Source: a virus
DNA length: 64,000 bases
IMG/VR virus record: IMGVR_UViG_3300032334_001019
Span: 54,465-118,464 of that record
Reading direction: 5' to 3' (one strand)
A model generated the notes under the pieces. The model was not told where the DNA came from, did no database searches, and saw only the letters and a program-made list of their open reading frames with translations. This document shows positions 3,852 through 35,574 of the stretch, piece by piece. The position numbers and the translations under genes are program-made. The stretch's first letter is position 1; each line of letters opens with the position of its first letter.

Positions 3852-4034
3852 TTAGTCACAGGATACACAGTAATATGGAGCACGAAGGTGATCTGGAGCA
3901 ATAAATGATGGTTTGCCACATCTTACACATACTGCTCTGACTAAACCATTGTCTTCCATCTCAAATCTAAATGATCTTGTGTAGTATACCCTTGTGGCAT
4001 ACCAGGTGAAGGCTATAGCGATTATTGTTATCAT
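3852..4034 (-). CDS. 60-residue membrane-anchored zinc-ribbon protein
   Basis: Starts MITIIAIAFTWYATRVYYT, a short hydrophobic N-terminal segment that could be a membrane anchor, followed by CVRCGK and CVSC, a four-cysteine ribbon. The ATG at 4034 is chosen because AGGAG lies five bases upstream; an in-frame TTG at 4046 has no such signal. It follows the 43-residue gene by one base. No family recognised. Confidence 0.6.
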   Translation of the reverse strand: MITIIAIAFTWYATRVYYTRSFRFEMEDNGLVRAVCVRCGKPSFIAPDHLRAPYYCVSCD

Positions 4035-4035
4035 T

Positions 4036-4167
4036 TTACTCCTCAAAACTCATTTGTGATGACCAAAAGTCATTATTGTCTGTTTCAATTTCATCTACAA
4101 CGACATGACAATTAGAACAAGTTACCTTGCCATCTAAGTCAATTTCATAGTAATGTCTACAGTCCAT
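4036..4167 (-). CDS. 43-residue zinc-ribbon miniprotein
   Basis: Encodes MDCRHYYEIDLDGKVTCSNC..., with a C..H pair at the N-terminus and CSNCH, followed by an acidic C-terminal tail. This suggests one zinc site. Gene order and close packing with the neighbouring miniproteins support it as real; function unknown. Confidence 0.6.
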   Translation of the reverse strand: MDCRHYYEIDLDGKVTCSNCHVVVDEIETDNNDFWSSQMSFEE

Positions 4168-4208
4168 AACTCTATAGTACCACATCAAGGTTAACAGATA
4201 TCCACAGG

Positions 4209-4331
4209 TTAGCAGTTATGAGTATAGCCACAATCAGGACATTTCTCTCCTGGATTTGCTACACAATCATCACACCAATCTGGAGCATCCTTCCAAGATT
4301 TACCTAAAGAATCATATTCTGGTTTGTCCAT
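4209..4331 (-). CDS. 40-residue cysteine-rich miniprotein, first gene of leftward auxiliary operon
   Basis: Encodes a protein with CDDC, CPDCG and a terminal HNC, which could co-ordinate zinc. It is the first gene of the leftward block. An extended -10 (TGATATACT, hexamer 4343..4338) lies exactly six bases before the ATG, implying a leaderless transcript beginning at or beside the start codon. Upstream is the repeat-rich non-coding region. Function unknown. Confidence 0.6.
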   Translation of the reverse strand: MDKPEYDSLGKSWKDAPDWCDDCVANPGEKCPDCGYTHNC

Positions 4332-4735
4332 GTGTCTAGTATATCAAAAGATATTGTAATTTGATAGTGGATTTGTCGATAAATCATCTTACTGATGATA
4401 TTTCTAGATAGGGTAGAAGTGGAGTAAAGTGGAGGATAGTGGAGTACTGAGCATTTATTTGAAGGCGCCGTAATTTCCACAACGGCCAAACCACCTATCT
4501 TTCAAACCACCATATCCCTCATATACCACATATGGGGAATATTGTCAAACCTTCGTAATATTGTTTGGGCATTATATACCCTGAAACAGGGTTTGTCAAG
4601 CCCCAAACCACATATATTTGTATAATGTATTGTCGACAAATCTCCAAATATCAGAGAAAAATTAAATAAAAATATATAAAGGTTTGATAAATATTTAAAT
4701 ATCAGGATAAAAGGTTTGATATCGTAATATAGGGG
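4332..4735. other. Repeat-rich AT-rich non-coding region, candidate origin or control locus
   Basis: About 400 bases with no convincing gene. It holds three AGTGGAG copies at an exact 10-bp period (4418, 4428, 4438), GGTTTG or CAAACC at 4487, 4503, 4546, 4590, 4604, 4681 and 4713, and CGTAAT at 4469, 4554 and 4723. From about 4610 the sequence is strongly AT-rich. Iterons at helical spacing beside AT-rich DNA are typical of origins or of arrays for a multimeric DNA-binding protein. The same words continue beyond the next gene (4987-5096). Confidence 0.5.
4418..4444. repeat. Three 10-bp phased AGTGGAG repeats
   Basis: AGTGGAG occurs at 4418-4424, 4428-4434 and 4438-4444, all on one face of the helix. 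It is a candidate iteron or protein-binding array. Confidence 0.6.
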
Positions 4736-4972
4736 TTATTCTGTATCAGAGTTGGCTTGTTTGTATACCTTGCCTAGTTCCCGCCCAATTTTGCGGGGGT
4801 TGAGAACCTCTGGATCTACGCCTGATAAATCGGCGGGGGTAAAAGAGAAGAAACGATTAACAATAGGAACATACTTAGTAACAGATACAAAACCATTCCA
4901 TAGGTTATCACTGAATGCTTGATATTGTTTTGGATCTTGCTTAGCATAGTCTGCAAAATGTGATCTTCCCAT
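4736..4972 (-). CDS. 78-residue hypothetical protein inside repeat region
   Basis: Encodes MGRSHFADYAKQDPKQYQAF... with a basic-aromatic composition and a C-terminal helical, lysine/arginine-containing segment. It is flanked on both sides by the GGTTTG/CGTAAT repeat array, so a role in recognising that array or in replication initiation is conceivable but not shown. The start has GATAAT exactly six bases upstream, the leaderless layout seen elsewhere here. No family recognised. Confidence 0.6.
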   Translation of the reverse strand: MGRSHFADYAKQDPKQYQAFSDNLWNGFVSVTKYVPIVNRFFSFTPADLSGVDPEVLNPRKIGRELGKVYKQANSDTE

Positions 4973-5189
4973 ATAAGAATTATATCATGGTTTGACAAAC
5001 AAGGTTTTATATGATAAAAGGTTTGGTACGGGGAAAAGAATTTGTCTTTCGTAATCTGGTTTGGGGAAAATAATTGTTTGATCGTAATATGGTTTGATAT
5101 GAATGTTTGGTATGTCCGATATGTCCGAATTCACGTGGCGATTTTCTGGCAGCACAAAGCAGGGGCGCAAGGCCCCCACCTGTGACTGA
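4973..5189. repeat. Second arm of GGTTTG/CGTAAT repeat array plus tandem CGGACAT
   Basis: Non-coding stretch with GGTTTG at 4987, 5018, 5058 and 5091 and CGTAAT at 5050 and 5083. The longest shared form is TCGTAATNTGGTTTG. At 5112-5141 there is a TGTCCGATATGTCCG tandem followed by CACGTGGCG, repeated in similar form near 7830. A GC hairpin (GGGGC/GCCCC, 5162-5176) follows the stop of the 5190 gene. Confidence 0.5.
5162..5176 (-). terminator. GC-rich hairpin after early operon
   Basis: GGGGC-GCAAG-GCCCC hairpin just downstream of the leftward gene ending at 5190. There is no U-run, so termination would need a factor. The same GGGGCGCAAGG word forms another hairpin at 5750. Confidence 0.4.
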
Positions 5190-5486
5190 TTATTCTATTG
5201 TGTTTTTCTTGATGTGTGACTCTGCCAAGAGAGCAGGAAGTGTGATTTCATCAAATGATTCAATCTCTTCCTCTGTAAGTTCGATAGCCTGAATAAACAT
5301 CTCAAACGATTCAACAATGTATTGCTCACCTAGTGGTGAGATTTCTTTTACTAAACCTTCAGCAACATAGTATGCCAATGGCAATCCAATGTCGTTATAC
5401 TCAATGAAGTTACTAAAATCCTCATCGTCCCTGAAGTTAATCCACAGTTCTCCTAAGATCCCTGCCTTGTCTGCCAAATCTACCAT
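5190..5486 (-). CDS. 98-residue acidic hypothetical protein
   Basis: Acidic protein (MVDLADKAGILGELWINF... FDEITLPALLAESH) with no recognised domain. It overlaps the stop of the upstream 77-residue gene by 7 bp, so it is translationally coupled. It is the last gene of the operon starting at 5713. Confidence 0.65.
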   Translation of the reverse strand: MVDLADKAGILGELWINFRDDEDFSNFIEYNDIGLPLAYYVAEGLVKEISPLGEQYIVESFEMFIQAIELTEEEIESFDEITLPALLAESHIKKNTIE

Positions 5487-5796: not shown

Positions 5797-6159
5797 CTAG
5801 GCCCCTACCTCCGCAGCAACAGGTGCATAGGCTAAGACAAATACATCCCAGCCAACGGCATTGCCCTGTTCATCAATAACAGTATGATTAATCAAGTCAA
5901 CAATCACAGTGGTCTCGCCCAAATCATAGTTGGTTCCAGTGATGGAGTAAATTCCAAAGCCGTGCTCATCCAGAACAGAATCTTGAATAAGATAACTAAT
6001 CATCATACGGGTGGCATATGATGGATCAGTCCACCTAGGCTTAGCATGCTCCAGGGCCATGGCAATATCACGACGCCAGCCAGTCTCACCCCAATGGCTG
6101 TACAAAACAACTGCAGATGACAGTTCGTCCTTAAAAACAAAGTTAATCCGTGCTCCCAT
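5797..6159 (-). CDS. 120-residue hypothetical early protein
   Basis: Encodes MGARINFVFKDELSSAVVLYSHWGE..., an alpha/beta protein with WRRDIAMALEHAKPRW and a long C-terminal beta region. The ATG at 6159 overlaps the upstream stop (TAATG) and has GGAAGGAAG upstream; an in-frame TTG at 6177 falls inside that ribosome-binding site and is not used here. The SHWGE...RDIA pattern is seen in several phage hypothetical proteins, but no function is known to me. Confidence 0.7.
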   Translation of the reverse strand: MGARINFVFKDELSSAVVLYSHWGETGWRRDIAMALEHAKPRWTDPSYATRMMISYLIQDSVLDEHGFGIYSITGTNYDLGETTVIVDLINHTVIDEQGNAVGWDVFVLAYAPVAAEVGA

Positions 6160-6305
6160 TAGTTTTCTTCCTTCCAAGATACAATTGATAGTTGACTTAA
6201 AATTTCATTGCAAAGGTCAGCCTCATTATCTGATTCAGCCTCATAACTAAATGTCATGTAATCACCTGTTGGTTCAAAGATGATTTCTACTTTATATTCG
6301 TTCAT
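6159..6305 (-). CDS. 48-residue acidic hypothetical protein
   Basis: Small beta-alpha protein (MNEYKVEIIFEPTGDYMTFSYEAES...) coupled by TAATG junctions at both ends. It resembles the many one-domain early miniproteins of actinophages in layout; no family recognised. Confidence 0.65.
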   Translation of the reverse strand: MNEYKVEIIFEPTGDYMTFSYEAESDNEADLCNEILSQLSIVSWKEEN

Positions 6306-22381: not shown

Positions 22382-22834
22382 ATGGCTTCTGAATACATTG
22401 ATGATACTGAAACTGGCACTGGGATATACCCAACAAAAATACCAGGGTACGAAGATGCTGCAGATATTCAAGAAGCATTAAAAATATATCACTATGGAAC
22501 AACAACGATTCCACAAACAACAGGGGCAGTAGATTCAAAATCTGTTGCAGGACATTTATTATCATTAAGACAAGATCTTAATACAGAGATTGCAAGAGGA
22601 ATTGGGTCTCAGATATCTAACTCAGCACCAGTATCTCCTGAAGATGGTTTTATTTGGGTAGATGCAGATACAGATGTTCCAGGTGTTGCAACATATTCAA
22701 CTGCTGTGTATACAAATATTGCACCAACTACTGGATTAACAAATGGGATAATCTGGGTAGAAAAAGGTTCTAGTCCATTAAAAATGTATGTATATAACAG
22801 CGATACATCTGCATGGGATGAGATTGGTGCATAA
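22382..22834 (+). CDS. 150-residue putative fibre-associated protein
   Basis: Contains KIPGYEDAADIQEALKIYHYG, a motif like those in phage short tail-fibre or hinge proteins, and two repeated modules (SPEDGFIWVDADTDVP, LTNGIIWVEKGSSP). It is coupled to the next gene, which overlaps its stop. An extended -10 lies 18 bases upstream of the ATG. Confidence 0.6.
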   Translation: MASEYIDDTETGTGIYPTKIPGYEDAADIQEALKIYHYGTTTIPQTTGAVDSKSVAGHLLSLRQDLNTEIARGIGSQISNSAPVSPEDGFIWVDADTDVPGVATYSTAVYTNIAPTTGLTNGIIWVEKGSSPLKMYVYNSDTSAWDEIGA

Positions 22835-24957
22835 TGACAACATTTAGCAGCACTCCAAAACCAGCATATATTTATGATGAGGCATCTGATACTTGGTATC
22901 TTGTTAGTGGAATAGTAAATACTGCATATCCATATACATGGACAGCGCCCAACACATTTGATGCTGTATTAACAGCAAAGGCTGGTGTTAATAATTTTGC
23001 AACATTAGCAGATAGAGATACTGCACTTGGACTAACACCAAGTAGTGGAGTTGTTTGTTTTGTTAGAGCAGATAATAGTTTAAACTCAATTAATCAATTA
23101 CAGTATTTTGATGGCTCAAAATGGAAAACAATTCATGATGCAACATTTGTTGATAAGTCATCAAACTATGTTATACAAAAGCATGATGTTAATAAAACAA
23201 TTAAAGTTGGATCACCATCTGATTCGTCAAGCGGTACAATAACTATAACTATTCCAAATAACTCAACTCAATCATTTGAAATTGGAAATAAAATTAATGT
23301 TGTTAGATATACTCCAAAACAAGTTTCTATTGTTCAAGGTTCTGGTGTAACAGTTTTTAGTAAATATAGTTCATTAGATATTGTTCCACAATTTGGAATG
23401 GTTGTACTTACAAAAATTGATACTAATTCTTGGTTGGTTACTGGAGATTTAGTTGGATCTATTCCATCAACACCAACTCCAACTCCAACTGCTACTCCTA
23501 CCCCTACACCTACTCCTACAACTCCACCACCAATTACAGATCCACCAATTACTCCAACACCTACCCCAACACCACCAATTACAGATCCACCAGTAACCCC
23601 AACACCTACTCCAACAGTAACCCCAACGCCTACTCCAACAGTAACTCCAACGCCTACGCCGACACCTACTCCTACACCTACGCCAGATAATAAATATTAT
23701 TATACATATTGCTATGGTGGTCAGACTTATAATGGAAATTCAAGCGTTCTTAATTGTGCAGAAATTGAAGCCAACCTTGGAGAAGGATCAACCAGTTTTG
23801 CTTGTCAACAAGGATCTGCACCAACACCTGCAGTTTGTAGCGTAACACCAACGCCTACTCCAACAGCAACACCAATTCCAACTTGGTATTTCTGCTGTAG
23901 TAATGGCGCAGGTGGATCTGTATCTGCAGCAAATGCTGGAATAGCAGCAGGATTAGCAAGTACATGGTGTGCTAATGAAGAACCTGGAAATACTTTATCT
24001 GGTGGAGTTTATTCAACACCACAAAGTTGTAATTCTATAACTCCTACACCAACACCGACTTCTACACCAACACCTACACCTTTAGATTGTTCTGACGCTG
24101 GATTCTTAAATCAAGCAGATTGTTTAGCATGTGGATATACCTATACAGGTGGAACTTGTTATGATACACCAAACCCTAGTGCAACACCTAATCCAACACC
24201 TACACCAACACCTACTCCTTTAAATTGTTCTGATGCTTCATTCTTAAACCAAGCAGACTGTTTGGCATGTGGTTACACTTACACAGGTGGAACTTGTTAT
24301 GATACACCAAATTTCACTCCTACACCAACACCAACTGCAAGCCCTAGCCCTACCCCTTCTCCAACTCCTTCACCAAGCCCTAGCCCTACTCCAACACCAA
24401 CTCCTACACCTACTCAAAACTGTACACCAATTTATCAAGGTATTGAAAATAGACAGTGCAATGGAAACTCAACACCAGTTGCAATTTATTTAAATCCATG
24501 TACTGGAGTTTATACTTGGAATTGCCCACCAGTAACTCCTACCCCTACACCTACACAACCACCAGTAACACCAACACCTACACCTACACAACCACCAGTT
24601 ACCCCTACACCTACACCAACACAGCCACCAGCAACACCAACACCAACACCAAGTTGTAGTCCAAATCAAGGTAATTCTTGTTTAGGTCCTGATGGATGTG
24701 CTGGAACAATTGGATGTAATGGAATTTGTTCATGTAATCCATCTCCATTTAGCGTCTTTAGTTTCTCACCATTTAGCGTATTTGGTTTCTCACCATTTAG
24801 CGCAGCCTTCTCAGTCTTTGGTTTCTCACCATTTGGCGCAGCCTTCTCAGTCTTTGGTTTCTCACCATTTAGTGCTGCATTTGGCGTATTTGGTTTCTCA
24901 CCATTTAGCGCAACATTCTCAGTCTTTGGATTTGCACCATTTACTGCACCAGACTAA
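22834..24957 (+). CDS. Thr-Pro-rich, Cys-rich virion protein with FSPF-repeat tail
   Basis: A 707-residue mosaic. Residues ~1-210 form an ordered beta-rich domain ending LVTGDLVG. Long Thr-Pro linkers follow (for example TPTPTPTATPTPTPTPTT near 215), separating cysteine-rich modules. One ~40-residue module (DCSDAGFLNQADCLACGY...) is present twice in tandem (residues ~420-490). The last ~70 residues are FSPF-type repeats (FSVFSFSPFSVFGFSPF...), extremely rich in Phe, Ser and Pro. It is probably a mucin-like surface fibre; the Thr-Pro linkers are plausible glycosylation sites for the GlcNAc-transferase encoded 21 bases downstream. Confidence 0.7.
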   Translation: MTTFSSTPKPAYIYDEASDTWYLVSGIVNTAYPYTWTAPNTFDAVLTAKAGVNNFATLADRDTALGLTPSSGVVCFVRADNSLNSINQLQYFDGSKWKTIHDATFVDKSSNYVIQKHDVNKTIKVGSPSDSSSGTITITIPNNSTQSFEIGNKINVVRYTPKQVSIVQGSGVTVFSKYSSLDIVPQFGMVVLTKIDTNSWLVTGDLVGSIPSTPTPTPTATPTPTPTPTTPPPITDPPITPTPTPTPPITDPPVTPTPTPTVTPTPTPTVTPTPTPTPTPTPTPDNKYYYTYCYGGQTYNGNSSVLNCAEIEANLGEGSTSFACQQGSAPTPAVCSVTPTPTPTATPIPTWYFCCSNGAGGSVSAANAGIAAGLASTWCANEEPGNTLSGGVYSTPQSCNSITPTPTPTSTPTPTPLDCSDAGFLNQADCLACGYTYTGGTCYDTPNPSATPNPTPTPTPTPLNCSDASFLNQADCLACGYTYTGGTCYDTPNFTPTPTPTASPSPTPSPTPSPSPSPTPTPTPTPTQNCTPIYQGIENRQCNGNSTPVAIYLNPCTGVYTWNCPPVTPTPTPTQPPVTPTPTPTQPPVTPTPTPTQPPATPTPTPSCSPNQGNSCLGPDGCAGTIGCNGICSCNPSPFSVFSFSPFSVFGFSPFSAAFSVFGFSPFGAAFSVFGFSPFSAAFGVFGFSPFSATFSVFGFAPFTAPD

Positions 24958-24978: not shown

Positions 24979-26187
24979 ATGTCAGAAATTGATAAAAAAG
25001 AAGAAGATCTTAGACAAGTTAGACCATGGGATTTTTTTAATCCAAATACTGAATATGCAACAAAAGAAGTTCAGTCTGCAAGATTTGATATTTGTAAATC
25101 TTGTCCAGAATTAATTAAACTAACATCGCAATGTAAAAAATGTGGTTGTGTCATGAGATTAAAAACTAAGTTAGCACTTGCAACATGTCCTATAGGTAAA
25201 TGGGGTACTGCAGAAAAATTAACTCCAGAATTAATACAAGAAGACTCAGTATCTAGAATATTTATTAATATACCTTCATATAAAGATCCAGAAATTTGGC
25301 TAACAGTAGAAAACTTTATTAAAAATGCTAAATATCCAGAAAGAGTTTTTTTTGGCATTACATTACAATCTAATAATATTTATCAAGATAGAATTCAGTC
25401 ATTTGAATATAATAATGTTAGTCTAGATGCTATTGAACCTGGATCAATTGTAGGCTGTCAGCCAGCCAGAAAAAATTCTCATAAATTTTATAGAAATGAA
25501 GAATATTATTTAAATATGGATTCACACATGAGGTCTATAAAAAACTGGGATGTAGAAATAATTAGAGAATACGAATTTAATAAAGAACATTATGGTGTAT
25601 CAATATTTACTGCCTATGCCCCACCTTATGATTTATTGCCAGATGGAACAGATGATATTAATCCAGATATAAGTTCAAACCCTACATTTTTTATGTCTGA
25701 ATCAAACATATCTAATTTTTATAAAAATTTAGTTCCACAGTTTACATCTCAATATACCAATCCTGGACACAATGTATTATCTCCATATATTTCTGGACAT
25801 TTTTTCTTTACAGAAAAACAAGTAATTGAAAGGGTTCCATTTATGTCTGAGATAACATTTACAGAAGAGGAACCCTTAATGGCTTTAAGATTTTTTACTG
25901 CTGGATTTAATCTTGTAACACCTAGTAAGGTTTTTGTATATCATAGATATGGAAGAGGTGGAAGAAGCCTATTTTGGGAAGATTTTCCAGAAAAGTTTTT
26001 CCCAGAAGATGAAAAATCTAGAAACTATTTTAGAGAATTAGTTACAACAAATAAAATAGACCCAGTAAGTGGTCTTTTTACAGAAAGATCACTAGAAGAT
26101 TATGAGAAGTATTCTGGTATAAGTTTTTCAACAGCAACCCTTCATGAGGGAGTAAAGTCTGGACTTCCTTCTGGTTCTTTCAAATAA
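24979..26187 (+). CDS. GT60-like GlcNAc-transferase with N-terminal DUF6171 ribbon
   Basis: A 402-residue fusion. Residues ~38-75 are a DUF6171-type zinc ribbon (CKSCPEL...CKKCGCVMRLK...CPIGKWG). From ~95 it matches the Skp1-type GlcNAc-transferase family: IFINIPSYKDPEIWLTVENF, GCQPARKNSHKFYRNEEYYLNM, the DSHMR metal motif, KNWD, and EEEPLMALRFFTAGFNLVTP. Family members add GlcNAc from UDP-GlcNAc, in Skp1 to hydroxyproline. Leaderless start (TATACT, six bases, ATG). It follows the Thr-Pro-rich protein gene directly and ends at a convergent terminator facing the endolysin. Confidence 0.88.
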   Translation: MSEIDKKEEDLRQVRPWDFFNPNTEYATKEVQSARFDICKSCPELIKLTSQCKKCGCVMRLKTKLALATCPIGKWGTAEKLTPELIQEDSVSRIFINIPSYKDPEIWLTVENFIKNAKYPERVFFGITLQSNNIYQDRIQSFEYNNVSLDAIEPGSIVGCQPARKNSHKFYRNEEYYLNMDSHMRSIKNWDVEIIREYEFNKEHYGVSIFTAYAPPYDLLPDGTDDINPDISSNPTFFMSESNISNFYKNLVPQFTSQYTNPGHNVLSPYISGHFFFTEKQVIERVPFMSEITFTEEEPLMALRFFTAGFNLVTPSKVFVYHRYGRGGRSLFWEDFPEKFFPEDEKSRNYFRELVTTNKIDPVSGLFTERSLEDYEKYSGISFSTATLHEGVKSGLPSGSFK

Positions 26188-30396: not shown

Positions 30397-33024
30397 ATGG
30401 CAACAAGAATGCAACAGCGCAGAGGAACTGCACAGCAATGGTTAGATGCAGACCCAGTTTTAGCAGCAGGAGAAATTGGATTTGAGACAGACACTAATGA
30501 GTTCCGTATTGGCGATGGTGTTAACGTTTGGTCAGACCTATCTCCTTTCAAGAATTTAGAAGACCTTGGTGGATCACTTGACGATTATGTCACAGTTGCA
30601 TCAAAGGGTCAAGTTAATGGTGTAGCACCACTTGGTTCAAATGGTCAGATCCCAATCGCATTTTTAGCAGATCTAATTGATGAAGCACCTGAAGCACTAA
30701 ATACACTTGGAGAAATTGCAGATCTTTTGACTACAGTTCAGTCAAGTGTTTCATCTTCAGTTGCAGCACACTCTGGAGACACAACAAATGTTCACGGAAT
30801 TGCAGATACAGCAAATCTTGCGTATCAAGCAGACATAACTACACACAATACTGACACAACAAATGTACACGGTATTGCAAATACAGCAGATCTTGCAACA
30901 AAGACATATGCAGATTCAGCAGTATCAACACATAATTCAGATACAACATCTGTTCATGGCATTTCAAACACTGCAGATCTAGCATTACAGGATGATGTAA
31001 CTGGTGCAGTATCAGCACACAATGATGAAACAGAAAATGTTCATGGAATTGCTGACACATCACTTCTAATAACAACAACTGCAATGGCAAGTGCAATTAC
31101 AACACACAATGATGATACTACATCTGTTCATGGTATTGCAGACACTACAGCACTTGCTACAAAGACTTATGCAGATGGCAAGGCTTCTGACGCTCAAACA
31201 GCAGCAATCTCAGCAGCAGCAACAGCAGCAGATGGCAAGGTTTCAGACCATAATGCTGATACTACATCTGTTCACGGTATTGCAGACACTACGGCACTTG
31301 CTACAAAAACATATGCTGACGGAGCAGTTTCAACTGCAGTATCAGCACTAACAAAATCTTCAGTAGGTCTAGGAAATGTAGATAACACTTCAGATGCATC
31401 TAAGCCAGTTTCAACCGCTACTCAAACAGCACTTGATCTAAAGGCACCACTTGCAAACCCAACATTTACAGGAACTGTTTCAGGTATTACAAAGTCAATG
31501 GTTGGTCTTGCAAATGTAACTAATACAGCAGATGCTGACAAGCCAGTTTCATCTGCTACCCAGACAGCACTTGACCTTAAGGCTAACCTTGCAGGTCCAA
31601 CATTTACAGGAACAGTAACACTTCCTGCAAATACAATTACAAATTCAATGATGGCTGATGATTCTGTAGATACTGCAGAAATCAAAAATTCAGCAGTTAC
31701 AAACGCTAAACTAGCAGGTTCGATTGGATGGGACAAGTTGTCAGTTTCTTCAACAGTTTCATCAACAGAACTTGGATATGTTGATGGCGTAACATCAGCA
31801 ATTCAGACACAGTTGGATTCTAAACTACCACTTGCTGGTGGAACAATGACTGGAGCACTTACACTTTCAGGTGCACCAACATCAGATCTTCATGCAGCAA
31901 CAAAGTTGTATGTTGATAACGTAACTGCTGGAATTAACTTCCATGAATCAGTTCACGCAGCATCAACTACAAACCTTGCAACAATTTATGCAAACGGAAC
32001 ATCTGGAGTAGGGGCAACTCTTACAGCAAATACAAACCGTGCATTTGCAACTCTTGATGGAGAATCTGTTACTCTTGGACAGAGAGTTCTTATTAAGGAT
32101 CAAACAGACGCAAAGCAAAACGGTATTTATACATTAACAACAGTAGGTTCAGTATCTGCTCCATGGGTATTAACTCGTGCAACAGATGCAGATAATAACC
32201 CAACTGGAGAACTAAAGGCTGGAGACTTCTGTTTAGTAATTAATGGAACTGTAAATGCTGGTTATGGATATATTAATAACTCAACAGCAAATCCAATCGT
32301 AATTGGAACTGATAACATTACTTACACAGCATTTAGTGCTGGCAAGACAGTAACTGCAGGCTCTGGTCTTACAGAGTCTACACCAGGAACACTTGATATT
32401 GCAACTGGTGGAGTTACATCAGCAATGATCGCTGATGGAACAATCGTAGATGCAGATATCAATGCTTCAGCAGCAATTGCTAAGACAAAGATTTCTGGAA
32501 CAGCGATCACTGCAGCAGATTCAGGTACAGTTACATCAGCAATGATTGCAGATGGAACAATTGTAGATGGAGACATTAATGCTTCAGCAGCAATTGCACA
32601 GTCTAAGATCTCAGGCCTAACATCAGCACTTTCTGCTAAGGCACCAGTTGATGCACCAACATTTACTAACCTAGTAACAGTTGCAGCATCTGGTGTAGCA
32701 TTTACAGATGGTACACAGACAAAGGCTGGCGTTCCTTCTATCACATCATTTGCAACAGCAATTTCTTCTAGTGCAACTCTTGCTTCTGGTCAACAGGACA
32801 AGTTCGTTCCACTAACTGGAGGAGTTCAGATCACATTGCCTGCAACTGGTTATTCAACTGGTCAATCAATTGATTTCTACCAAGAATCAGGTACAGGAGC
32901 ATCATTTGCTTCAACTAACGGCGTTGTTGGAACACCAGGTTTAAAGTTTAGAACTACAAACTCAGTTGTAACAGCAATGAAGACTTCTGCAGGATGGTTG
33001 GTCTTTGGAGACCTATCACTATAA
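30397..33024 (+). CDS. Phage-tail-repeat fibre protein
   Basis: An 875-residue protein. Residues 1-50 (MATRMQQRRGTAQQWLDADP... GEIGFETDTNEFRIGDG) form the head seen in many tail fibres and major tropism determinants. Six or so H-N-D-T-T-x-V-H-G-I repeats follow (residues ~125-310), typical of phage tail repeats with histidine-co-ordinated metal. Then come GLGNVDNTSDASKP and LANVTNTADADKP shaft repeats, a beta-helix-like region and a C-terminal tip (FYQESGTGASFASTNGVVG). It likely forms the main long fibre. AAAGGAG and an extended -10 (TGTTATAAT) precede it. Confidence 0.82.
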   Translation: MATRMQQRRGTAQQWLDADPVLAAGEIGFETDTNEFRIGDGVNVWSDLSPFKNLEDLGGSLDDYVTVASKGQVNGVAPLGSNGQIPIAFLADLIDEAPEALNTLGEIADLLTTVQSSVSSSVAAHSGDTTNVHGIADTANLAYQADITTHNTDTTNVHGIANTADLATKTYADSAVSTHNSDTTSVHGISNTADLALQDDVTGAVSAHNDETENVHGIADTSLLITTTAMASAITTHNDDTTSVHGIADTTALATKTYADGKASDAQTAAISAAATAADGKVSDHNADTTSVHGIADTTALATKTYADGAVSTAVSALTKSSVGLGNVDNTSDASKPVSTATQTALDLKAPLANPTFTGTVSGITKSMVGLANVTNTADADKPVSSATQTALDLKANLAGPTFTGTVTLPANTITNSMMADDSVDTAEIKNSAVTNAKLAGSIGWDKLSVSSTVSSTELGYVDGVTSAIQTQLDSKLPLAGGTMTGALTLSGAPTSDLHAATKLYVDNVTAGINFHESVHAASTTNLATIYANGTSGVGATLTANTNRAFATLDGESVTLGQRVLIKDQTDAKQNGIYTLTTVGSVSAPWVLTRATDADNNPTGELKAGDFCLVINGTVNAGYGYINNSTANPIVIGTDNITYTAFSAGKTVTAGSGLTESTPGTLDIATGGVTSAMIADGTIVDADINASAAIAKTKISGTAITAADSGTVTSAMIADGTIVDGDINASAAIAQSKISGLTSALSAKAPVDAPTFTNLVTVAASGVAFTDGTQTKAGVPSITSFATAISSSATLASGQQDKFVPLTGGVQITLPATGYSTGQSIDFYQESGTGASFASTNGVVGTPGLKFRTTNSVVTAMKTSAGWLVFGDLSL

Positions 33025-33047: not shown

Positions 33048-34196
33048 ATGTCAAAACAAGCAGGTAGAATGAGCCAAGGTGCAAATGATTTCTTGGCTCC
33101 ATACGCACCAACAATAGGAACAGCAACAGATGTCGGAACAGCACGTCCATATAATAATGGAGCAGCAACCGTAACATTTACTGCAACAGGTCCAAATACA
33201 GCGGACTCATTCACAGTTTATGCTGTTGAAGATCCTACAAAGACTGCTACTGGCGCATCATCTCCTTTAACAGTAACAGGTCTAGCATCTGCAACAAATT
33301 ATACATTTAAGGTATATGGTACAAATACTGCAGGTGGTCGTGGTTCTGATTCTTCAGCATCTAACCAAATTACAGCAACAACAGTTCCTGCTGCACCAAC
33401 AATTGGCACAGCAACAGATGTTGGAACGGGCCGTGCATATAATAATGGTGCAGCAACTGTTACAGCAACTGCAGGAGCAACTGGTGGAAAAGCAATCACT
33501 GGATATACTGCACTTTCTAGCGCAGCACAAACAGGAACTGCTGCAACTAGCCCAGTAACTGTTGGAGGTTTAGCATCATCAACTGGTTACACTTTTACAG
33601 TTAAGGCAACAAATGCTAATGGTGATTCAGCGTATTCTTCAGCATCAAACTCTATAACAGCAACTACAGTTCCAGAAACTGTTGGCACACCTGGTGTAAC
33701 AACCGCTGCAGTTGGTGGTTCAGCAGCACAGGGTGCAGCAAATACTGCAAATGATACAGTTTCATGGTCAGCACCAGCAAATGGTGGAAAAGCAATTGAT
33801 CTGTATTATTGGACATGTTCAGACGGCAAATCAGGAAGCACTGCATCTACATCTATAGTTGTAGGACAAGAATCAAATACAGCACAGACATATAGTGTTT
33901 ATGCACACAACCCTAATGGAAATGGTGGCACTGGAACATCTGCATCAATTACATCAGCGTTCTCATTTACACCATTCTCAGTGTTCTCATTTTCACCATT
34001 TGGTGTGTTCTCGTTTTCACCGTTTGGTGTTTTCTCGTTCTCACCATTCGGATTCTCTCCATTTGGATTCTCGCCATTTGGATTCTCACCATTTGGTGTA
34101 TTCGGATTCTCACCATTCTCAGCAGCGTTTGGTGTATTTGGATTCTCACCATTTGGTGCATCGTTTGGCTTTGCACCATTCTCAGCATGGACATAA
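33048..34196 (+). CDS. Fibronectin III protein with FSPF-repeat tail
   Basis: A 382-residue protein. Three fibronectin type III-like domains (~20-110, ~115-205, ~210-300) show IGTATDVGTGRAYNNGAATV, the linker SITATTVPE and GKAIDLYYW. The last ~78 residues are FSPF-type repeats (FSVFSFSPFGVFSFSPFG...), the same low-complexity pattern as at the end of the 22834 protein. Fn3 domains on phage virions bind carbohydrates on cells. A terminator follows. The protein is probably a decoration or appendage; the repeat tail may mediate assembly or self-association. Confidence 0.75.
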   Translation: MSKQAGRMSQGANDFLAPYAPTIGTATDVGTARPYNNGAATVTFTATGPNTADSFTVYAVEDPTKTATGASSPLTVTGLASATNYTFKVYGTNTAGGRGSDSSASNQITATTVPAAPTIGTATDVGTGRAYNNGAATVTATAGATGGKAITGYTALSSAAQTGTAATSPVTVGGLASSTGYTFTVKATNANGDSAYSSASNSITATTVPETVGTPGVTTAAVGGSAAQGAANTANDTVSWSAPANGGKAIDLYYWTCSDGKSGSTASTSIVVGQESNTAQTYSVYAHNPNGNGGTGTSASITSAFSFTPFSVFSFSPFGVFSFSPFGVFSFSPFGFSPFGFSPFGFSPFGVFGFSPFSAAFGVFGFSPFGASFGFAPFSAWT

Positions 34197-34279: not shown

Positions 34280-34939
34280 ATGCAATATAGCATGAATATA
34301 CCACCAAGTGTGAGCAAGTCAACACAGCCACACAGATTCTTTGAAAGATTTTTAAATAATGATCTTCAAGAATTAACAGTAGAACTTCAAGATAGATATC
34401 AAAAAATCCAGGAAGCAAAAGTTGCTGGTGTTACACCAGTAGGAGAAAATGAATTTTGGAAGCAGTCTAATAGTGTTTCTACTATGAAGTGGAGACAGTA
34501 TAATGTTTTTCAGTTTCACTCATCTGGACTCTATAATCTTTATTCATCAATCTCTGATATGGTTAAAGAAGCATGTCAGTATTATGGTTTAGATTTTAAT
34601 GAACAGCAATATATGGTTCAGGGTTGGTTCAATATTAACTATACAAAATCTGGTAAGTTAGATTGGCATGACCATGGCCCAGAAGGTGCACCAAACTTTC
34701 ACGGATACTATTGTGTAAGTGCAGAACCTTCTACAACACATTATCGTGTTTTTGATAAGAATGTTGAAAATAATAACTTAAACAACCGTGCAATTTTGTC
34801 TGAAATGGGCCATCCACATGCTCAAGCAGACTGGGACTGGGAAGGTCCAAGAATTACAGTTGCATATGATGTAATTCCATTGAAAGATTTAAAGAAATTT
34901 GCAATGGATCAAGAACAGCATTGGATACCACTAATATGA
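34280..34939 (+). CDS. 2OG-Fe(II) oxygenase-like protein (type A, copy 1)
   Basis: A 219-residue protein with the metal and 2-oxoglutarate pattern of the 2OG-FeII_Oxy_5-like group: LDWHDHGPEGAPNFHGYYCV (proximal His ligands), a distal MGHPHAQ, and the arginine of RITVAYDV. The N-terminal half is helical. Family members hydroxylate proteins or small molecules. It is paralogous to the next gene and overlaps it as ATGA. An extended -10 (TGGTATACT) lies upstream, with AGGACTT before the ATG. Confidence 0.7.
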   Translation: MQYSMNIPPSVSKSTQPHRFFERFLNNDLQELTVELQDRYQKIQEAKVAGVTPVGENEFWKQSNSVSTMKWRQYNVFQFHSSGLYNLYSSISDMVKEACQYYGLDFNEQQYMVQGWFNINYTKSGKLDWHDHGPEGAPNFHGYYCVSAEPSTTHYRVFDKNVENNNLNNRAILSEMGHPHAQADWDWEGPRITVAYDVIPLKDLKKFAMDQEQHWIPLI

Positions 34940-35574
34940 GCGAAAAGAAAGCACACAGATTTTATTTTAGACATTTAGAAAATGATTTAGAAGAACTTAG
35001 TCAGTATTTAACACAAAAACAAGAAGAACTTTTAAACGGAACATGGCTAAATATAGATAAAGAGATTTTATCTGAATACAATAAGTATAATGGACCAACC
35101 ACACAACTTGGTTCACTATACAACATCTTTAATCTTGATGTACCAAGCATAGTTAATCTAAAGTCTGCAATTAGAGATGCAGTAAAAGATGCTTGTGATT
35201 ACTACGAGTTAGATTTTGAGGCATTGGATTATATGATTCATGGATGGTTTAATCTTGACTATAAGACTGAGGGTGACAATGGTGTTAACCCAGTAAAGAA
35301 TGAAGTCTTCATGCATGACCATATGGGTGGAGAAGGTGCACCAGTTTTCCATGGCTACTACTGTGTAAATGCAGAACCATCAATAACATACTATAAGATT
35401 GACGGCAAGCATCTGCATGAAAACCATAATCAAAATAATAAACTAATTGTTTCAGAAACTGGTCATCCACATGGAAGAGATGATTGGTATGAAGATAAGC
35501 CAAGAATCACTATTGCATATGATATCTCTCCTTTAGAAAGAGATGGCAAAGGCGAAAAGTGGATAAAGTTATAA
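34936..35574 (+). CDS. 2OG-Fe(II) oxygenase-like protein (type A, copy 2)
   Basis: A 212-residue paralogue of the previous protein: FMHDHMGGEGAPVFHGYYCVNA, TGHPHGRDDW and RITIAYDISPLE keep the same His and Arg positions. The ATG at 34936 overlaps the previous stop and defines the start; the in-frame TTG at 34921 does not. The duplication is old enough for clear divergence, so the two may have distinct substrates. Confidence 0.7.
   Translation: MSEKKAHRFYFRHLENDLEELSQYLTQKQEELLNGTWLNIDKEILSEYNKYNGPTTQLGSLYNIFNLDVPSIVNLKSAIRDAVKDACDYYELDFEALDYMIHGWFNLDYKTEGDNGVNPVKNEVFMHDHMGGEGAPVFHGYYCVNAEPSITYYKIDGKHLHENHNQNNKLIVSETGHPHGRDDWYEDKPRITIAYDISPLERDGKGEKWIKL

Follow-up and report, generated by a model that had tools for sequence, protein, structure and literature searches.

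The autoprocessing chemistry of Hint domains is an N-S acyl shift. Hint domains, including the bacterial intein-like (BIL) domains, have been described as autoprocessing modules (Amitai 2003 and Dassa 2004, as reviewed in PMC7765530): A-type BILs autocleave (PMC7765530), and BIL2 of Tetrahymena joins its N-flank to the amine of a lysine (PMC8616854). Removable C-terminal domains of fiber proteins are also an established kind, for example, ICA/Peptidase_S74 of phage tailspikes. Short Phe-containing repeats are familiar from the FG-nucleoporins, in which Phe makes up roughly a tenth or less of the residues.

Here we describe a Phe-rich array of FSPF repeats at the C termini of two fiber proteins encoded by one phage genome. 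The stretch of DNA that we analyzed (the window; 64,000 nucleotides) is the last 64 kb of a 118,464 bp virus record from IMG/VR. We refer to the two open reading frames that end in arrays as slot A (22834-24957) and slot B (33048-34196). The features discussed below are as follows.

22834..24957, + strand: slot A fiber protein P0001 (707 aa), with an N-domain, a stalk, and a C-terminal FSPF array
24742..24954, + strand: FSPF array of slot A, residues 637-707 of P0001 (71 residues), SPFSVFSFSPFSVFGFSPFSAAFSVFGFSPFGAAFSVFGFSPFSAAFGVFGFSPFSATFSVFGFAPFTAPD
24979..26187, + strand: DUF6171-like plus GlcNAc (PF11397) glycosyltransferase (E = 2.6e-39), directly after slot A
33048..34196, + strand: slot B fiber protein P0002 (382 aa), with fn3 repeats and a C-terminal FSPF array
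33960..34193, + strand: FSPF array of slot B, residues 305-382 of P0002
34280..34939, + strand: neighbor of slot B, possibly 2OG-Fe(II)-oxygenase-like (assigned by eye only)
34936..35574, + strand: second, paralogous oxygenase-like neighbor (the longest open reading frame starts at 34921; in-frame ATG at 34936)

P0001 has a virion-type N-domain (residues 1-206), followed by a mucin-like stalk of TPTP repeats with Cys-rich modules and then by the array. Residues 46-206 match tail, minor-tail, and tail-fiber PHROGs in profile searches, and the cassette around the gene is conserved. By its tail-type domain and gene context, P0001 is probably a tail-fiber protein, in line with the virion protein proposed in the initial annotation, and the mucin-like character noted there is confirmed by TPTPTP linkers between the Cys-rich modules. 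The initial annotation also described near-perfect FSPF repeats over the last ~70 residues. The array does lie there (24742-24954), but it is not built from one fixed unit: it mixes 8-residue units (SVFGFSPF) with 12-residue units (SAAFSVFGFSPF). The generalized forms are (S/G)VF(G/S)F(S/T/A)PF for the 8-residue unit and SAAF(S/G)VFGFSPF for the 12-residue unit; a 5-residue unit, GFSPF, is also present in the second array of the window and in the arrays of relatives. The slot A array is 32% Phe, and its only charged residue is the terminal Asp. FxFxPF occurs six times in P0001, as compared to a maximum of two in 20,000 shuffles of the whole protein, and VFxFxPF occurs six times in the array, whose own shuffles contain it 0.02 times on average. 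The initial annotation had not recognized the array as any known fiber tip, and it indeed has no match in Pfam, PHROGs, NCBIfam, or the PDB (none at E < 0.4; the best PDB match, to coronavirus spike at E = 0.49, is spurious). A degenerate beta-helix or other known fiber tip is not supported, as no profile or structure matched.

Searching the window's own record identified the second array, at the end of P0002 (E = 4.2e-13 against the slot A array). The array is the sole recognizable part that P0001 and P0002 have in common: the N-terminal halves are unrelated, and the repeats of P0002 belong to the fn3 family (Pfam fn3, 2.3e-13). The Phe content of the arrays is 32-40%, and both proteins stop within about 10 amino acids of the last repeat. 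The slot B array has eight core units with eight distinct DNA spellings. Given these eight of eight distinct spellings, together with the diverged codons at the matched tips (described below), we reject the view that the arrays are similar only because of a recent DNA duplication.

We then surveyed the fiber cassette on contigs of 28 relatives. Each of the 28 records has an array match, and every slot B gene that was read keeps its array. An fn3-type homolog of slot B is present in all 28 cassettes; 24 carry the slot A N-domain, 25 a lysozyme-like gene, and 27 the two paralogous genes that follow slot B. Slot A of a relative is usually a gene of its own that begins with a PASTA domain; in the window, slot A is a tail-type N-domain fused to a stalk of TPTP repeats and Cys-rich modules. 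Relatives have short N termini in both their slot A and their slot B proteins, with no recognized virion-binding domain. Downstream, the window contains the genes for the capsid, portal, protease, and tape measure.

Several neighbors could modify the fibers. The tandem paralogs after slot B (34280-34939 and 34936-35574) had no significant match in Pfam or the PDB, and an HxH...H...R pattern is invariant in them; they are possibly 2OG-Fe(II) oxygenase-like and could hydroxylate Pro-rich fibers. Similarly, the glycosyltransferase at 24979-26187 might modify the TPTP stalk. Its PF11397 part belongs to a eukaryote-like Skp1/GT60-type family; in relatives, the DUF6171-like part is common and the transferase part is mostly absent. 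Another fiber protein in the window (30397-33024) has an Mtd_N (major tropism determinant N-terminal) domain. The TTY codons of the array have no A in the coding strand, which bears on the idea that it might be the target of a diversity-generating retroelement. Outside the window, the same record contains six tRNA genes (Asn, Asp, Arg, Glu, Ile(tat), and Met; L125 6802-6952 and L126 12612-12919).

FSPF repeats do occur in other phage proteins, for which the initial annotation had suggested a search: besides the second copy in the same phage, arrays are present at at least 130 loci in IMG/VR, all of them with the same fiber cassette. (Two IMG/VR scans yielded 42 loci and 131 confirmed stretches, of which 80 were kept, and later scans added more.) At least two other cassette genes adjoin the array in 139 of 139 loci checked, so as far as it has been sampled, the array is confined to one phage lineage. 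Among the 593 pattern matches in GTDB species genomes, none was confirmed as an array, and we rejected a bacterial origin on this basis. No array was found among the 50,697 phage records of INPHARED by tblastn, whose low-complexity filter limits the search. The nearest isolated relatives of the window's genome are the Actinomycetia phage DSL-LC01, which is from a lake and has a B12-dependent ribonucleotide reductase (RNR) with 62% identity to that of our phage, and the BE-type Streptomyces phages: the capsid protein is 45% identical to those of LukeCage and BillNye, and the tape measure is 27-31% identical to those of BE-type phages such as LukeCage, BillNye, and Evy. Unlike the window phage, DSL-LC01 does not contain an FSPF array, as judged from its six-frame reading. 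Since these nearest relatives are actinophages and include a lake phage, the host of the array phages is likely a freshwater actinobacterium.

The array peptide is under strong purifying selection. In four close pairs of slot B genes, the array has no nonsynonymous changes, as compared to 28 (L070/L073), 23 (L063/L100), 19 (L061/L062), and 9 (L051/L048) synonymous changes. In the fn3 parts of the same pairs, the ratios of nonsynonymous to synonymous changes are 18/59, 39/42, 11/17, and 30/34, respectively. With 0 versus 11-39 nonsynonymous changes, the array is more constrained than the folded fn3 domains next to it. (More distant slot B pairs do have some nonsynonymous changes in the array.) This bears on the simplest explanation of the array, which is that it is a passive, low-complexity spacer like the TPTP, INT, and QNT stretches. 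The array does take the place of TPTP, INT, or QNT linkers before the Hint domain in other relatives, and it has no predicted structure. However, the other linkers in this place change completely, whereas the array peptide is kept while its synonymous sites diverge and is found across all 28 records; also, a peptide with 32-40% Phe would make a poor soluble spacer. Given the selection on the peptide, we consider a passive linker very unlikely.

The stalks of slot A do vary in this way. Between relatives, TPTP switches to INT, QNT, VTP, or TAAT, and in eight loci (L160, L163, L166, L167, L171, L173, L179, and L182), hypervariable stalks with PTPT, VVPP, INT, QNT, TVNT, VTPA, or TTAA repeats lie between Cys-rich modules and are swapped among related phages. 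In L171, slot A (3919-5463) has a Cys-rich end, and a separate short open reading frame downstream (5806-6219) encodes a Hint-like C-terminal part; this is possibly a split gene or a split domain. In G022, an array match near slot A (C1:13167-13334) crosses two in-frame TAA codons, which may reflect a disruption, an assembly error, or an alignment across the end of the gene.

Most relatives of P0001 and P0002 do not end at the array. Of the 61 distinct array proteins, 41 have another 140-215 residues after the array, which is the length of a Hint domain, and 17 end within 20 amino acids of it. Pfam scans barely detect the domain after the array. We compared a profile of 19 copies to the PDB: the best match was 2lwy, a bacterial intein-like domain (E = 1.8e-6), and inteins and BIL2 also matched. 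An AlphaFold model of the domain (pLDDT of 91.9) matched BIL2 of Tetrahymena by Foldseek (6y75; E = 1e-10, TM of 0.77/0.79), as well as other inteins and the hedgehog autoprocessing domain 1at0. Thus, the profile matches and the predicted structure indicate that the post-array domain of most relatives has a Hint/BIL fold. The window proteins, which both end near the last repeat, have no such domain and no Pfam match to one. A search of the window's record for the PT-HINT family also found nothing, which is weak evidence because Pfam scans also miss the Hint domains of the relatives.

The motifs for autoprocessing are only partly kept. In 51 distinct Hint copies, with spurious pattern matches to block B corrected by eye, the full set (Cys1, TxxH in block B, and the terminal HN) is present in 14; another 15 have Cys1 and HN without a clear block B His, 10 have Cys1 only, and 12 have lost both Cys1 and HN. 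As those 12 lack both Cys1 and the final Asn, cleavage cannot be general. Cys1 either follows the array immediately (..FGFSPGC or ..FGFSPIC) or is separated from it by a short pre-Hint stretch (..FSPYGFSTTVYGIRC). As in A-type BILs, HN is not followed by Cys, Ser, or Thr. Cleavage by the established chemistry of Hint domains would make the array the mature C terminus, which is what the window phage already encodes.

A removable domain at the C terminus raises the question of whether the array and the Hint domain together are an intramolecular or transient chaperone, that is, an aid to folding and oligomerization with a role like that of ICA/Peptidase_S74. Their C-terminal position, the removable domain in many relatives, and the exchange of the same module between different fibers are all consistent with this. 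However, 17 of the 61 array proteins have no domain after the array, and others have one that is probably catalytically dead. Also, the array is predicted to be unfolded, and the C-terminal domain does not match ICA/S74. We therefore view a chaperone as improbable.

We asked how the C termini of slots A and B compare within each of 23 genomes that have both slots, using four classes (no Hint, HN-type Hint, degenerate, and other). The two slots agreed in 19 of the 23 genomes. After collapsing three groups of near relatives, they agreed in 12 of 16, versus 4.4 expected (p = 1.5e-5). The last 20 residues of slots A and B score 48 against each other within a genome and 9 between genomes, which was not reached in any of 100,000 permutations; shared ancestry inflates all of these figures, as the collapse covers only the closest relatives. 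In all four discordant genomes (G002, G008, G015, and G023), slot A has no Hint and slot B has one. Tip types that each occur in both slots include FNFAPWG, SAAG, SPY(S/T)R, SPFSVFGFR (FGFR), and VYHLYPID, and LTHDGNEW (HDGNEW), HDGK.WYD, and THNK are also found in both slots of one genome. In the window phage, both arrays have SAAF inserts. The matched tips have the same amino acids with many synonymous differences; because their codons differ, they are not recent DNA copies.

The matching might nevertheless be neutral, with repeated gene conversion through the repeat DNA homogenizing the tips in the absence of a shared function. The two array genes are in the same orientation and about 8-11 kb apart, and in a tree of Hint domains, the two copies from one genome can be sisters (G017, 100/99; G006, 99/98); those of G004, G007, G024, and G025 are in a shared clade. 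These sister pairs indicate that part of the tip matching is due to shared ancestry or old gene conversion. But the codons of the matched tips have diverged, and the class match holds even where the Hint domains of slots A and B are of different subfamilies, both HN-type (G010, G011, G026, and G028). Neutral homogenization also leaves both the presence of the array and the selection on it unexplained, and as a full account it seems quite improbable.

Overall, the initial annotation had caught one instance of a larger phenomenon, which comprises two arrays, many relatives, Hint domains, and matched tips; it had missed that the array is common to two proteins, that a Hint/BIL domain follows it in relatives, that the tips covary, and that the peptide is under purifying selection. 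A docking or self-association role fits this evidence best. Our tentative proposal, which we hold at somewhat less than even confidence, is that the FSPF array is a dedicated C-terminal tail for the attachment or assembly of two fiber proteins displayed by one virion. One of them, slot A, would be an adhesin of the mucin or PASTA type, and the other, slot B, a protein of the fn3 type; the N-terminal parts of both would face outwards or bind the host. The flexible, Phe-rich tail would bind the partner's tail or a common acceptor on the virion through numerous weak contacts of its Phe residues. Most relatives would make the tail as a precursor with a Hint/BIL domain that cuts itself off directly after the array and leaves it as the mature C terminus, possibly via a thioester that could be passed to an amine of the acceptor. 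In the window phage, which lacks the Hint domain, P0001 and P0002 would be made with the array already at the end.

We favor an attachment tail because two co-encoded fibers have in common a constrained peptide with covarying tips, and because the array would be freed, or is already free, at the C terminus in most members. In addition, as slots A and B of the relatives have short N termini with no recognized virion anchor, the C terminus is left as the likely point of attachment. We infer the location on the virion, the binding to self or partner, the cleavage, and the transfer to an acceptor. Array-to-array pairing cannot be universal, since 9 of the 23 genomes have no real array in slot A; in these, a PTPT, INT, QNT, or VTPA stalk is followed directly by the Hint or by a Cys-rich end, and slot B keeps its array. 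The tail may bind its counterpart on the other fiber, some other protein of the virion, or the surface of the host.

The last of these is the basis of a different reading, in which Phe-rich distal tips, on adsorption, stick to or insert into a hydrophobic layer of the host surface, be it the membrane or another one, and both fibers have the same tip because both meet the same surface. The layout of P0001 argues for this and against an attachment tail: its N-domain is the virion-type part and resembles tail-attached domains, so its array would be at the far end. The composition of the array strongly favors the membrane interface (Wimley-White sums of -17 and -25 kcal/mol for the two window arrays), PASTA and fn3 partners would suit contact with the cell wall, and the tips vary between lineages, like receptor-facing parts. 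However, the hydropathy of the array is below the level of a transmembrane helix (the maximum 19-residue mean is 1.4-1.5), and the array is internal in the class with degenerate Hint domains. Its near-absolute conservation in close relatives is also unlike that of receptor-binding tips, which vary fast. On balance, we consider contact with the host envelope less likely than an attachment tail, but a real contender.

Transfer of the array to an acceptor is chemically possible, because BIL2 conjugates its N-flank to an amine and A-type BILs autocleave. An attachment tail might extend to a self-ligating display, in which C-terminal Phe-rich tails hold the adhesins on the virion or join them to one another, with the BIL thioester being transferred to an acceptor amine in many members. 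This would be an energy-free, sortase-like surface attachment in which the tail sequence and the acceptor coevolve in two genes. We consider this stronger form a long shot. Low-complexity repeats in phages are usually dismissed as linkers, and this one is more constrained as a peptide than the folded domains next to it. If the array is an attachment tail, then phages would have a new way to mount or mature adhesins, intein-like domains would gain a role in virion assembly, and the array would be a genetically encoded sticky tail with natural variants in length and tip.

We did not find a report of an FGFSPF repeat in the literature that we searched, nor a Phe-rich array, a BIL linked to phage fibers, or the matching of tips between two genes in that literature (which included few subscription journals) or in the structures and profile libraries that we searched. 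Both Hint/BIL domains and removable C-terminal domains of fibers are already known kinds. Like the FG-nucleoporins, the array consists of short Phe-containing repeats that are predicted to be disordered: in an AlphaFold model of the slot B monomer, which is a prediction and not a measurement of disorder, the fn3 domains have pLDDT above 90, and the array has pLDDT of 36-51 and no secondary structure, so it is predicted to be flexible as a monomer; the model has no bearing on assembly. The array differs from the FG-nucleoporins in its 32-40% Phe, in having Pro in nearly every unit, and in lacking charged spacers, and we found no homology. Like ICA/Peptidase_S74, the array and Hint would work as a removable C-terminal module that is exchanged among fibers, but the likeness is in the way of working only: the fold differs from Hint, there is no Pfam match, and the chemistry of the Hint would be an N-S acyl shift. 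Finally, compared to known BILs, the copies in the relatives terminate phage fiber proteins behind a Phe-rich array, and many of these array-linked copies are probably catalytically dead.
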